Below, piece by piece: positions 3,592 through 9,934 of a DNA stretch of 64,000 nt. Below the pieces are notes generated by a model. It ran no database searches. It was given only the letters and a program-made list of their open reading frames with translations, and was not told the origin of the DNA. A program made the translations under genes and the position numbers. Each line of letters opens with the position of its first letter. Position 1 is the stretch's first letter. The stretch comes from Ktedonobacteraceae bacterium (lineage in GTDB: Bacteria; Chloroflexota; Ktedonobacteria; Ktedonobacterales; Ktedonobacteraceae): contig DASRBN010000037.1 in assembly GCA_035653615.1 (NCBI GenBank), positions 311,736-375,735 of the forward strand. Reading direction: 5' to 3'.

Positions 3592-4038
3592 ATGGCAGAT
3601 TCGGAGAAAAATAGGAATAGCAACCAGGATACAGGTGCGGTATCGAATGATCAGGGCTTTCAACAACCGGGCGGGCAGAATGCCGATTACAATAAGATGA
3701 TTCGAGATGAGCACCTGGGCACCGCTAAAGGCGAGGGCGAGCCTGAGGGCGGTATGGGTACTGGAACCCAGCCTGATACCGCGCTTGGCAGTGGGAGAGC
3801 ACCTGGGGGCGCGGCCACAAGTAACAGCACGGTCGCCGGTGGTGGAACCACGGGCGGCACAAATCCGGGCGGCATTACCACTACGGATCGTGGCAGACCG
3901 TCTATGCGCGATTTAACCACCAATAGCGATCCCATCATGGGTGTAGGTGGTCGCGGCGACATAGCGGGCCAGGCCCCACCGAAACCCATCCCGGAGCAGG
4001 ATATTCATACTGAGGAGAAGTCCAGAGATCAATCGTAG
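3592..4038 (+). CDS. disordered Gly/Thr-rich hypothetical protein
   Basis: A 148-residue hydrophilic protein rich in Gly, Thr, Pro and Asn, with low-complexity tracts such as GGGTTGGTNPGGITTT. It has no signal peptide, cysteine or membrane segment, and it looks intrinsically disordered over its whole length. The start ATG follows GGAAAGGGAG at good spacing, which supports expression. It resembles small stress- or desiccation-type hydrophilic proteins in composition only. The function is unknown. Confidence 0.6.
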   Translation: MADSEKNRNSNQDTGAVSNDQGFQQPGGQNADYNKMIRDEHLGTAKGEGEPEGGMGTGTQPDTALGSGRAPGGAATSNSTVAGGGTTGGTNPGGITTTDRGRPSMRDLTTNSDPIMGVGGRGDIAGQAPPKPIPEQDIHTEEKSRDQS

Positions 4039-4249: not shown

Positions 4250-5482
4250 TCACACCGATAGCTTTTCCAGCGCCTGGTCCAGGTCACTAATAATATCCCC
4301 TACATCCTCGATGCCGGCAGATAAGCGGATACAACCATCTGAAATGCCGATATGCTGGCGCTCAGCGGGTGTCAGATTGCGGTGTGAAGACATGGGTGGG
4401 TAGCTCACCTCGGTATAGACATCGCCGAGCGTTGTGGCCGGTAAACAGAGTTTCAGGCTGTCCATGAAGCGGTAAGCAGCGTCGCGGGACTGGCTCTTTA
4501 ATTCAAATGCCAGCAGCCCGCCAAATCTTTGGGATCGAAGCATCTGTGAAGCTAGTTCATGCTGTGGATGGTTGGGCAGTCCGGGATAATAGACGCGCTC
4601 AACGGCAGGATGCGCTTGCAAGAATTGCGCTACCTGCAAGGCATTCGTACAATGCCGCTCCATGCGCAGTGTCAGCGTCTTCAATCCACGCGCAATCAGA
4701 AACGACTCGAACGGACTGAGCATCGCTCCCAGCATGGTGGCATAGCCGCGCAGCTGCTCGACCTGCGCATTGCGAGCGCTCACGATGACTCCGGCGGTGC
4801 TATCACCATGCCCGCCGAAATATTTCGTTGCGCTGTGTACAACGAGGTCGAAACCGAGCGTGATGGGTTGGACAAGATAGGGCGTGGTGAAGGTGCTATC
4901 GACGATGCTCACCGCGCCAACCTCATGAGCGGCGGCGCTGATTGCGGCGAGGTCCGTTACGCGTGTTAACGGATTCGAGATTGTCTCTACGTAGACAACA
5001 TCTGGCTGCTCTTCCCGGATGATATCCCCAGCCTGGGCGCAACAGAGGTCGCGCAGTTGTACGTCGACACCTACCGGTTTGAAGATGGTGCGCATCAGGC
5101 CGATTGTCGGACCATAGAGGTCCTGGGCGGCCAGAATCTTCGCTCCTGGCGCAAGCCCTGCTGTCAGCAAAGCGGCATGAATGGCCGCCATGCCGGAGGC
5201 AAACACCACAGCGCCGGCCCCTTTCTCCGCCCGGGCCAGCGTATTCTCAAGCGCCTGGGCGTTAGGATTCCCTTGCCGCGCATAGACATAGGCCTCTTCT
5301 CCATTGGAGAGACGACCGGTAAAGGCCTGGTCAAGCGCTTCCGCGTTGGCTTGCAGGTAAGTTGTGCTGGCGTAGATAGGCTGGGTGGTTGGGACTATCG
5401 GATTGCTTGCATTGGCAACGCTTTTACCCCCATGCACCAGCAGCGTGTCTAAAGTCCAGGTTGAGTCATCGGATCGTTTCAA
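4250..5482 (-). CDS. Cys/Met-metabolism PLP enzyme (cystathionine gamma-synthase / gamma-lyase family)
   Basis: A 410-residue cytoplasmic fold-type I PLP enzyme of the trans-sulfuration family. It shows the family N-terminus (DTLLVHGG, PIVPTTQPIYASTTY), the PLP phosphate-contact region (YARQGNPNAQALE and FASGMAAI), the cofactor aspartate (SIVDSTFTTPYLVQP), the Schiff-base lysine in HSATKYFGGHGD, and the C-terminal RLSAGIEDVGDI. These motifs do not separate synthase from lyase or O-acetylhomoserine sulfhydrylase. The frame is open to 5548, but a TTG at 5482 has GAGGTG five bases upstream and forms a TTGA overlap with the stop of the upstream INSIG-like gene, which argues for translational coupling. 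It is last of a three-gene operon. No SAM riboswitch was recognised upstream. Confidence 0.9.
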   Translation of the reverse strand: MKRSDDSTWTLDTLLVHGGKSVANASNPIVPTTQPIYASTTYLQANAEALDQAFTGRLSNGEEAYVYARQGNPNAQALENTLARAEKGAGAVVFASGMAAIHAALLTAGLAPGAKILAAQDLYGPTIGLMRTIFKPVGVDVQLRDLCCAQAGDIIREEQPDVVYVETISNPLTRVTDLAAISAAAHEVGAVSIVDSTFTTPYLVQPITLGFDLVVHSATKYFGGHGDSTAGVIVSARNAQVEQLRGYATMLGAMLSPFESFLIARGLKTLTLRMERHCTNALQVAQFLQAHPAVERVYYPGLPNHPQHELASQMLRSQRFGGLLAFELKSQSRDAAYRFMDSLKLCLPATTLGDVYTEVSYPPMSSHRNLTPAERQHIGISDGCIRLSAGIEDVGDIISDLDQALEKLSV

Positions 5483-6048
5483 AGTACACCTCGCGAAGAG
5501 AGCGACACCAGGCTCCTTCCCAGGTCTCCTACTGCCAGCGATGCGCACGCATAGATGCAGGGCAACCAGTAAGGAACGCCGATCATGTCAGGATGTAAAT
5601 ACGAAAAGGCTCCGGCTGCTACCAGCGTCATTTCAATGAGCGTGCCTGTAATAGCCACCACGAGCGCAAGCAACAAACTTTGCCAGCGTCTCCCGCTGAG
5701 CAGCCAGAAGTTGAGAAAGATGAGAATGAGCAATCCTGCTTTGGCAATCGAGTCGAGCATACTCGCTCCCACCAGCTGTGCGAGCAACAACCACGATAAT
5801 TCGCCAATGCTGATTGTGAGCCTGCGTGGAGGGCGAATATTGCCGATCAGCGGATCGACCAGCGGGTGAGAATAGCCGATGGCGACGACAGCAGCGCCAA
5901 AGAGGAGCGGCACCCACCATGCCATTCCGAACAGAACAGGCATACTATAACGCTCGACATGGCTGTACACGTCGATGGCATCGAGGCCCGTACCGAACAC
6001 CGCGCCCAGTAGGAAGAGCGACGTTATTACCCATCCCGAATGCTTCAT
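5479..6048 (-). CDS. INSIG-like integral membrane protein
   Basis: A 189-residue protein with five or six hydrophobic segments. Its pattern matches animal INSIG proteins from memory: WWVP followed by a G/A-rich helix, an IG..(Y/H)P..D element (GYSHPLVDPLIG), a late helix ending near FSYLHPD, and the hallmark WLPCIYACASLAVGDLGR, compared with INSIG's SWLPCIFF...GNIGR. INSIGs are ER sterol sensors that retain SCAP and HMG-CoA reductase; a mycobacterial homolog has a known structure. A bacterial member implies a lipid-binding membrane sensor or carrier. It sits 21 bases after a redoxin-like gene, and its TGA overlaps the TTG start of the PLP enzyme. Function in this organism is inference. Confidence 0.7.
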   Translation of the reverse strand: MKHSGWVITSLFLLGAVFGTGLDAIDVYSHVERYSMPVLFGMAWWVPLLFGAAVVAIGYSHPLVDPLIGNIRPPRRLTISIGELSWLLLAQLVGASMLDSIAKAGLLILIFLNFWLLSGRRWQSLLLALVVAITGTLIEMTLVAAGAFSYLHPDMIGVPYWLPCIYACASLAVGDLGRSLVSLSSRGVL

Positions 6049-6069: not shown

Positions 6070-6561
6070 CTAAGGCGTGCAGAGCCGGTTAAGATAGCGG
6101 AGCGCATCCAACAGTTCCTCAATTGATGGTAAGCTGGCTTCATCATCGGCTATCCATTGTTGATAGAGCGCGCTGTATCGGTCGGCCAGGACGATGCTGG
6201 GTCGAATGGTCTCCGCTTTGCCTTCCCAGAAGGTATAACGGGAGATAACTTCCCCTGCCGGGTCGGCAAGAAGCGCGAAAGGCAGCTTCAAATCTTCCTG
6301 GGTTTGCAGGTTGGTAATGACCGTATCGGGTGAAATTGCCAGGATTGAGCAATCCTCCTCACGAAACTCCGCATAATGCTGCGCGAATGCCCGTAGCAGG
6401 CCGCGCGTTTCTCCTGTGGTCGAGCTTCTTGTAATCAACAGCACCAGGTGCTCGCGTTGTTTGTAATCCCACGGACTATGCGGCATGCCATCCGCGCCCG
6501 GCAGGGTGAAAGCAGGGATGATCTGTCCCACTTCGATCAGTGGCTGGTTCGTATTCGACAT
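6070..6561 (-). CDS. redoxin/AhpC-TSA-fold protein lacking the peroxidatic cysteine
   Basis: A 163-residue thioredoxin-fold protein. GQIIPAFTLPGADG is the typical start of the AhpC/TSA domain. It is followed by LVLLITRSSTTGETRG where a peroxiredoxin would have its catalytic cysteine, then AISPDTVITN and LPFALLADPAGEVISRY. The only cysteines lie elsewhere (EEDCSIL and near the C-terminus), so ordinary peroxidase chemistry is unlikely. The start at 6561 is chosen because GAGGAT lies 9 bases upstream; an in-frame ATG pair further out is possible. It is first of the operon with the INSIG-like and PLP-enzyme genes. Confidence 0.75.
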   Translation of the reverse strand: MSNTNQPLIEVGQIIPAFTLPGADGMPHSPWDYKQREHLVLLITRSSTTGETRGLLRAFAQHYAEFREEDCSILAISPDTVITNLQTQEDLKLPFALLADPAGEVISRYTFWEGKAETIRPSIVLADRYSALYQQWIADDEASLPSIEELLDALRYLNRLCTP

Positions 6562-6701
6562 AGATAAAATCCTCATCATGTCAGCAAGAACTGGATTTTC
6601 GGATGTGTCCTCATGTAGCATTGTACATCATGGGGGATAGGGGATGCGTTCTCAATAGCATGGAAAGCAGCAAAAATAACTGGTGATTACTCATGATGTG
6701 A

Positions 6702-6820
6702 CGGGGGATTCTTCGCTGCGCTCAGAATGACACCCCTGGGTGTATCATGGTCTGGGCGTGTCATAGCCAGGCATGCCATGGTCTGGGCGTGTCATTCTGA
6801 GCGCAGCGAAGAATCCCCCG
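6702..6820. repeat. dispersed palindromic element, head-to-head pair
   Basis: A 32-bp arm at 6702-6733 is perfectly inverted at 6789-6820. The arms contain the core GTCATTCTGAGCGCAGCGAA found at many other places in the window. The spacer holds a direct repeat of ATGGTCTGGGCGTGTCAT (6747-6764 and 6778-6795). The rest of the 6562-6961 gap shows no gene. Confidence 0.8.
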
Positions 6821-6961
6821 CGCAGTTGTCCCGCTGTCCCGCCTTGCATCACCTGGCTCATTTATGGATAACCATCAGAGAAATAACGCTTGTATTTTGT
6901 TTAAACACCATGTAATCTTGAAGGAAAGAGTCATAATTTAAATGAAGAGAGAAGGATGTTC

Positions 6962-7651: not shown

Positions 7652-8695
7652 ATGGAAGGTACAATGATGGCGGCCCTCAAAGCGGAGGCGGCGCCTGGAG
7701 CAACGGTTGCCCTGGTTGACATTCCTCGTATCGGCCCGCGTGATGTGCTGGTGAAGGTGAAAGCAGCCTCTATCTGTGGCACAGACATGCATATCTATGA
7801 GTGGGATGCGTGGGCGCAGAGCCGCATGACTACCCCTCGTATCTTTGGTCACGAGTTTGCCGGTGAGATCGTCGAGGTCGGCGACGAGGTAACGCAGCTC
7901 GTTCCCGGCGATTTTGTCGCGGCGGAAACCCATATTACCTGCGGGCACTGTTATCAATGTCGCACCGGTCAGGCACATGTCTGCCAGAATGTGCAGATTA
8001 TCGGCGTAGACCGCGATGGCGCGTTTGCCCAGTATATCGCTATTCCCGAAAGCGTGGCCTGGAAAACCGGCAAAGAGATCGATCACAAGGTCGCCTCTAT
8101 TCAAGAACCATTCGGTAATGCCGTGCATGCCACATTCGCGGGCGAAATTGCCGATCAGACCGTGGCAGTAATCGGCTGTGGCCCCATTGGCCTGTGGGCC
8201 GTTGGGTTATCCCGCGTCTCAGGCTCCAGCACCATCTTTGCTATAGAACCGAATCACAAGCGCCTGGAAATCGCCATGAAGATGGGCGCGGACTATGTCA
8301 TCAATCCCCGCGAAGTCGATCCGGTGCAGAAAGTGCTGGATGTTACTGGCGGGTTGGGCGTCGATGTCGTGCTGGAGATGTCCGGCAACCCATTGGCAAT
8401 CCGGCAGGGCTTCAAGATGCTGCGCAGCGGCGGGCGTGTCTCTCTGCTTGGCATTCCCTCGCGCATGGTCGAACTGGATCTCGCGAACGATATCATCTTC
8501 AAGGGCGCGACCGTGCTGGGCATCTCCGGGCGGCGCATCTTCGATACCTGGTATCGCACGCGCAGAATTCTCGAAGGCGGTCAACTCGACCTCAAGCAGG
8601 TCATTACGCATACACTCCCGTTTGAGCAGATTCACGAGGCCATGGAGATCATGAAATCTGGCGACTGCGGCAAAATAGTGCTGACTTTTGACTGA
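7652..8695 (+). CDS. tdh: L-threonine 3-dehydrogenase
   Basis: Zinc-dependent medium-chain dehydrogenase of 347 residues, oxidising L-threonine with NAD+ to 2-amino-3-ketobutyrate. Visible features are the catalytic zinc cysteine in SICGTDMHIYEWD, GHEFAGE, the four-cysteine structural zinc loop CGHCYQCRTGQAHVC, the nucleotide-binding segment VAVIGCGPIGLWAVG, and LEMSGNPLAIRQG. The next gene encodes the enzyme that cleaves its product, so both form the Tdh-Kbl route to glycine and acetyl-CoA. The ATG at 7652 follows GGAGG by 11 bases; an alternative start at 7664/7667 follows GGAAGGT at closer spacing and aligns well with the usual N-terminus. Confidence 0.93.
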   Translation: MEGTMMAALKAEAAPGATVALVDIPRIGPRDVLVKVKAASICGTDMHIYEWDAWAQSRMTTPRIFGHEFAGEIVEVGDEVTQLVPGDFVAAETHITCGHCYQCRTGQAHVCQNVQIIGVDRDGAFAQYIAIPESVAWKTGKEIDHKVASIQEPFGNAVHATFAGEIADQTVAVIGCGPIGLWAVGLSRVSGSSTIFAIEPNHKRLEIAMKMGADYVINPREVDPVQKVLDVTGGLGVDVVLEMSGNPLAIRQGFKMLRSGGRVSLLGIPSRMVELDLANDIIFKGATVLGISGRRIFDTWYRTRRILEGGQLDLKQVITHTLPFEQIHEAMEIMKSGDCGKIVLTFD

Positions 8696-8715
8696 TCTAG
8701 CAGTGTAATTCATGT

Positions 8716-8739
8716 GAGGGCGCGATTTGTTGCGCCCTC
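8716..8739 (+). promoter_or_regulatory. stem-loop between tdh and kbl
   Basis: GAGGGCGC and GCGCCCTC form an 8-bp GC-rich stem with an 8-base loop, ending 6 bases before the kbl ribosome binding site. There is no T-run. It could adjust kbl translation or stabilise the downstream message. Confidence 0.45.
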
Positions 8740-8755
8740 CGTTCAAGGAGGAAGC

Positions 8756-9934
8756 ATGGACAAACTACAGCAATATTTAAAGGGCGAATTGGACGGGCTG
8801 CGCGCGAAGGGCGTCTTCAGCCTGCCACGCGAATTGGAGACGGAACAGAAGGCCACCGTTATCATCGATGGGCACGAGGTCATCACCCTTTCCTCGAACA
8901 ACTATCTTGGCCTGACCGTCCATCCACGTCTGAAAGAACTTGCGATTGCGGCGATTGAGCGCTATGGCGTCGGCTCAGGCTCGGTTCGTACCATCGCCGG
9001 CACTATGTCGCTGCACAACGAGTTGGAAGAGAAACTGGCGCGTTTTAAGCATACTGAGGCCTCACTCACCTTCCAGTCCGGCTATGCCACTAACCTGGGT
9101 GTGATCTCGGCGCTGATGCAGGAAGGCGATATGATTATCAGCGACGAGCTGAATCATGCCAGCATCATCGACGGTATTCGCCTGTGCAAAGCGCCGCGCA
9201 AAGTGTATCCACATAAGGACATGGCTGGTCTGCGCCGCGCGCTAGAAGAGTCCAAAGGTGCTAACAAGGTGATGGTCGTTACTGATGGCGTCTTCAGCAT
9301 GGATGGCGACATCGCCCCGCTGCCGGAGATTGTCGAACTGGCCGAGGAGTATGGCGCTTTCGTGATGGTGGACGATGCTCACTCCAGCGGCGTGCTGGGC
9401 AAGAATGGGCGCGGCAGCGTCAACCATTTCGGACTGGACGGCCGAGTCGCCTTGCAGGTAGGTACGCTTTCCAAGGCCATCGGTGCGCTCGGTGGTTATG
9501 TAGCCTGTAGCAAAGACGCGCGCGATTTCCTCTTGCAGCGTGCCAGACCGGTTCTCTTCAGCACTTCTCATCCGCCCTCTGTGGTAGCAACCTGCATCGG
9601 GGCTATTGATATTCTTGAGGAGGACAACAGCCTGGTCGAGCGCCTATGGGAGAACACCGCTTTCTTCAAGCGCGGCCTGGAACAGCTCGGCTTCAATACC
9701 GGGCGCAGCGAGACCCCCATCACGCCCGTTATCGTTGGTGAAGGCGCCCTGGCAATGCAATTCAGCCGGCGTCTCTTCGAAGAAGGCGTGTTCGCGCAGG
9801 GTATCGTCTATCCCACCGTTCCCGCCGACAAGTGCCGCGTCCGCACCATCGTTACGGCGTTGCATACCCGCGATGAACTGACGAAGGCACTCGATATCTT
9901 CGAGAAGGTGGGGAAAGAGCTGAAGATCATCTAA
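8756..9934 (+). CDS. kbl: glycine C-acetyltransferase (2-amino-3-ketobutyrate CoA ligase)
   Basis: A 392-residue alpha-oxoamine synthase, close to the E. coli Kbl length. It is a PLP enzyme that thiolyses 2-amino-3-ketobutyrate with CoA to glycine and acetyl-CoA. Motifs are [66 protein letters not shown] and the Schiff-base lysine region [15 protein letters not shown]. The ATG at 8756 follows AAGGAGGAAGC; the open frame upstream is not used. It is cotranscribed with tdh. Its last codons (KII-stop) lie inside a perfect palindrome shared with the end of the convergent gene. Confidence 0.94.

Follow-up and report, generated by a model that had tools for sequence, protein, structure and literature searches.

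An INSIG-family protein within a probably older operon encoding a Cys/Met-metabolism enzyme in a Ktedonobacteraceae bacterium

A gene of a Ktedonobacteraceae bacterium encodes, as judged from homology and shared motifs, a true member of the INSIG family, and lies in an operon that is, by comparison of relatives, older than its INSIG gene. In these bacteria, INSIG proteins probably have a job that does not involve sterols, because the host genome is without key sterol-making genes. In animals, by contrast, INSIG is known as an anchor of cholesterol control. The window, by which we mean the whole stretch of 64,000 nucleotides that was analyzed, carries the following features.

4250..5482, minus strand: Cys/Met-metabolism PLP enzyme (CGS/CGL/MGL superfamily) with a TTG start; PF01053, 398.7 bits
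5479..5482, minus strand: TTGA stop/start overlap of INSIG and the PLP enzyme; ATGA in relatives
5479..6048, minus strand: INSIG-family membrane protein of 189 aa; PF07281, INSIG-2 match, hydropathy
6070..6561, minus strand: AhpC/TSA-like protein without the peroxidatic cysteine, with an invariant Cys71 and a C-terminal Cys161; PF00578, alignment and a motif check in 21 species

Identity of the INSIG protein

The open reading frame begins with ATG, and its product has six hydrophobic stretches in a hydropathy profile. The first-pass annotation had recognized a 189-residue membrane protein with INSIG hallmarks, and these are borne out: AWWVP is found at residues 43–47, FSYLHPD at 148–154, WLPC at 161–164 and GDLGR at 174–178, with WLPC replaced by WLPW in the INSIGs of genus g11. 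The search with an INSIG profile that the annotation had proposed returns PF07281 as the sole Pfam-A match, at 41.1 bits (E = 2e-10) against a curated cut-off of 28 bits, and the same model is matched by all eight family members.

Among PDB chains, considered up to E = 10, the protein matches only INSIG-2 and its mycobacterial homolog. The best match is vertebrate INSIG-2 (6m49, 9pxb), with a bias-corrected E of 5e-14 over 176 residues (11–186), and the mycobacterial protein MvINS (4xu4/4xu6) reaches 0.07 with the single sequence. When a profile built from eight relatives is used instead, E falls to 7.7e-17 with INSIG and to 2.7e-5 with MvINS. Raw identities are nevertheless alike, at 26% over 176 residues for INSIG-2 and 28% over 159 for MvINS, so the higher score of INSIG-2 comes from shared motifs and conservative changes, and in part from the biased composition of MvINS. 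That INSIG-2 outscores MvINS should therefore not be read as phylogeny. Six helices are seen in the AlphaFold model of the window protein, but confidence was low in both of the runs made (pLDDT 50 and 45, pTM 0.35 and 0.27), which used shallow alignments of 8 and 9 sequences, and a fold search of the PDB with the first of these low-confidence models gave chance matches only.

The neighboring genes

The PLP enzyme is encoded directly downstream of INSIG. That the INSIG stop overlaps a TTG start, as the first-pass annotation had it, is upheld: the junction reads TTGA (5482–5479) in the window and ATGA in all seven relatives that were read, and the occurrence of ATGA at the same overlap supports the TTG as a start codon. 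The protein read from this TTG begins MKRS..., which aligns with the MKRSNN of a relative. It retains the PLP lysine and the YxR motif, and among proteins of solved structure methionine gamma-lyases match it best; it falls below the cut-off of every NCBIfam model among the 25 listed. The residue after the active-site YG is Pro, Gln or Ala.

Upstream of INSIG, at a distance of 21 bases, lies the AhpC/TSA-like gene (PF00578, 66.9 bits). The description of this neighbor as redoxin-like needs a correction, in that the peroxidatic cysteine is absent from the window's protein, from those of all INSIG genomes and from 20 of the 21 species copies. The sole copy with a Cys in the peroxidatic stretch (SETC) is that of G022, whereas Cys71 and Cys161, the latter near the C terminus, are invariant in 21 of 21 species. 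This “redoxin” is probably not a working peroxiredoxin or peroxidase. Almost every genome of family f1 that has its gene carries it next to that of the PLP enzyme.

Other elements were noted around the operon. Threonine-dehydrogenase-like and 2-amino-3-ketobutyrate-ligase-like genes, named from their sequence, occur nearby at 7652–9934, and also in L020 and L054. A short sequence, GGGGATTCTTCGCTGCGCTCAGAATGACA, is present in inverted copies at 6700–6825, upstream of the operon, and a Gly-rich, hydrophilic ORF of 148 aa without a Pfam match is found at 3592–4038.

Distribution and history of the operon

Of the 47 genomes of the class that were searched with the family profile, nine carry INSIG; they come from three genera of family f1 (29 genomes), and the other families of the order have none. 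The Pfam model alone finds INSIG in three of 400 Chloroflexota genomes, and most of genus g11 escapes it but is recovered with the family profile. A deeper profile run over the same 400 genomes adds just two borderline matches. That in G158 sits in an unrelated transporter-like ORF; that in G056, from another Chloroflexota family, is a shorter protein that resembles the C-terminal half of INSIG. The latter (L075:2472–2846) is a 124-aa membrane protein whose best PDB matches are INSIG-2 (1.9e-4), with weak resemblance to DUF817 and to the lycopene cyclase domain; its other matches in the 400 genomes are INSIGs of the family only, the best at 4e-6. Plasmid, phage and viral collections yielded no INSIG relatives, and plasmids searched with MvINS as the query likewise gave nothing. 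Beyond Chloroflexota, relatives were sought in one contig scan with short peptide patterns, and eukaryotic sequences were those of PDB chains.

The first-pass annotation had proposed looking for conservation of the gene pair in relatives, and this conservation is found. The order AhpC/TSA-like gene, INSIG, PLP enzyme is present in eight of the eight informative INSIG genomes, the contig of the ninth beginning just upstream of INSIG. The eight include G044, the INSIG of which is broken or poorly assembled: at L020:2917–3790 a TAG is present and the two parts of the match fall in different frames, and the assembly contains runs of N. Gene order and overlap are kept across the three genera at INSIG identities of 56–69%, with ATGA retained in the two genera other than that of the window.

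The two flanking genes are also adjacent without INSIG in 16 f1 genomes, with gaps of about 31–158 bp, and it is on this basis that the operon is taken to be the older. In a tree of the two flanking proteins, the genomes with INSIG group in a single clade with a bootstrap of 89, opposite an INSIG-free sister clade with 96. Given the empty site in 16 relatives, the single clade of carriers and the lack of INSIG in the other families, these gene arrangements are most simply explained by one insertion of INSIG into an older two-gene operon in an ancestor of the three genera; a less simple history would be an older gain of INSIG followed by loss. In one further genome, G046 (genus g13), the AhpC/TSA-like gene is kept, but both INSIG and the PLP enzyme are missing from this site and from the rest of the assembly. 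This joint loss was seen once, and the assembly concerned is fragmented.

Selection on the INSIG gene

Within genus g11, dN/dS is 0.16–0.33 for INSIG, which implies purifying selection, and 0.02–0.09 for the PLP enzyme. Synonymous divergence of INSIG in this genus (L015–L021) is about half that of both neighbors, as for the pair G037/G041 (0.30 versus 0.65 and 0.93). The low dS suggested a second overlapping frame through INSIG; the +2 frame is indeed long, but it is not open in all genomes, and this candidate was rejected.

Sterol and hopanoid context

The view of the first-pass annotation that the context is unlike sterol biology agrees with the gene content of the window's genome, to which the search for sterol genes was confined. 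Searches of this genome, which is 95% complete, for members of the squalene epoxidase and HMG-CoA reductase families gave nothing, and the same searches were positive in control genomes. The genome does have a full-length match to squalene-hopene cyclase (469 bits), and is the only one of the nine INSIG genomes to do so; short partial matches occur in two others, G037 and G041, and three genomes (G025, G035 and G001) have a full-length cyclase without INSIG. Neither sterol nor hopanoid synthesis, therefore, tracks INSIG, and a hopanoid was rejected as the general ligand of the family for want of co-occurrence, eight of the nine carriers being without a full-length cyclase.

Residues of the vertebrate protein can also be compared. 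Asp149 of INSIG-2, which we take to be equivalent to Asp205 of INSIG-1, corresponds to Gly119 of the window protein, and position 132 of INSIG-2, a glutamine, corresponds to Ala102. Gln132 lines the sterol-binding cleft of INSIG-2 (PMC9233655), and Asp205 of INSIG-1 is the position of the D205A substitution (PMC12905343).

Proposed role and alternatives

The reading that we prefer, to which we would give roughly even credence as a whole, is that INSIG here serves as a membrane adaptor without enzymatic activity, binds a lipid other than a sterol, was gained once and works with the PLP enzyme. By analogy with animals, INSIG would most likely act as such an adaptor. To our knowledge, the INSIG proteins described so far are binding proteins with no enzymatic role, and the mycobacterial one is named as diacylglycerol-binding; it is from these two points that we infer the adaptor function. 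The ligand would be no sterol and, in general, no hopanoid; our best guess is a glycerolipid such as diacylglycerol, from which the mycobacterial relative takes its name. Having been inserted between the AhpC/TSA-like and PLP-enzyme genes of an existing operon in the ancestor of the three genera, INSIG would be translated from one message with the PLP enzyme, which is most likely its partner, for example through tethering of the enzyme to the membrane or its adjustment to the state of membrane lipids. Homology, the conserved triad, the empty site in 16 relatives, the single clade of carriers, the overlap, purifying selection, the joint loss in G046, the missing sterol genes and the presence of a full-length cyclase in one carrier of nine were all counted in favor of this reading. 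Against it, co-transcription alone is no proof of joint function, and the PLP enzyme and the AhpC/TSA-like protein do not need INSIG, because both occur without it in most of f1.

The strongest competing explanation treats INSIG as a passenger, a membrane protein that binds lipid and was inserted and co-expressed with no direct tie to the PLP enzyme or to sulfur metabolism. We regard this as possible, if somewhat doubtful. The INSIG-free pairs in 16 relatives, together with the higher dN/dS of INSIG than of the PLP enzyme, are as a passenger would have it. A passenger would sit less easily with an overlap and a gene order that have outlasted divergence to 56–69% identity across three genera, or with the absence of both INSIG and the PLP enzyme from G046. 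An unlikely third explanation has INSIG sensing a polycyclic triterpenoid, either a hopanoid or an environmental sterol, and working as in eukaryotes; the cyclase of the window's genome and the higher score of the sterol-binding INSIG-2 over MvINS speak for it, but the cyclase does not track INSIG across the genomes, as described above, and the cleft residue Gln132 is replaced by Ala and Asp149 by Gly. A chance match to INSIG, produced by the hydrophobic composition of an unrelated multi-helix membrane protein, would accord with the low-confidence models, their lack of fold matches and an identity of just 26% to INSIG-2. Such a coincidence is nonetheless highly improbable in view of a bias-corrected E of 5e-14 over 176 residues, a profile E of 7.7e-17, a curated cut-off that is passed and motifs that are common to both proteins.

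With the motifs of its animal counterparts and a host that lacks key sterol genes, this bacterial INSIG branch is a simple system in which to study the role of the family without sterols, and the conserved operon with a sulfur/amino-acid enzyme names a candidate partner. A bolder suggestion, which we consider rather improbable, is that this bacterial lineage stands closer than its mycobacterial counterpart to the origin of eukaryotic INSIG, with INSIG acting in it as a lipid-responsive membrane adaptor for a cytosolic amino-acid/sulfur enzyme and sterol sensing being a later eukaryotic use.

Comparison with known systems

The PLP enzyme shares the PLP lysine and YxR motif with the methionine gamma-lyase/cystathionine gamma-synthase superfamily (PF01053), but differs from methionine gamma-lyase in having Pro, Gln or Ala after YG, where the lyase has Cys.

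INSIG may itself be part of a wider bacterial superfamily, to judge from the 124-aa protein of G056. MvINS and the window protein are both bacterial INSIG homologs, albeit with a weak match between them. The mycobacterial protein forms trimers (PMC7815742) and is named “diacylglycerol-binding protein” in NCBIfam NF047899, a model against which the window INSIG scores 23.8 bits, far under the cut-off of 280 bits; in the alignment, moreover, MvINS is without the WLPC...G(D/N)xGR segment. Vertebrate INSIG-2, on the other hand, is matched over nearly the full length, and AWWVP, Y..PD, WLPC and G(D/N)(L/I)GR are common to the two proteins. The window INSIG departs from INSIG-2 at the Gln132 and Asp149 positions, in its bacterial host without two key sterol-pathway families, and in the setting of its gene, an operon shared with a PLP enzyme.
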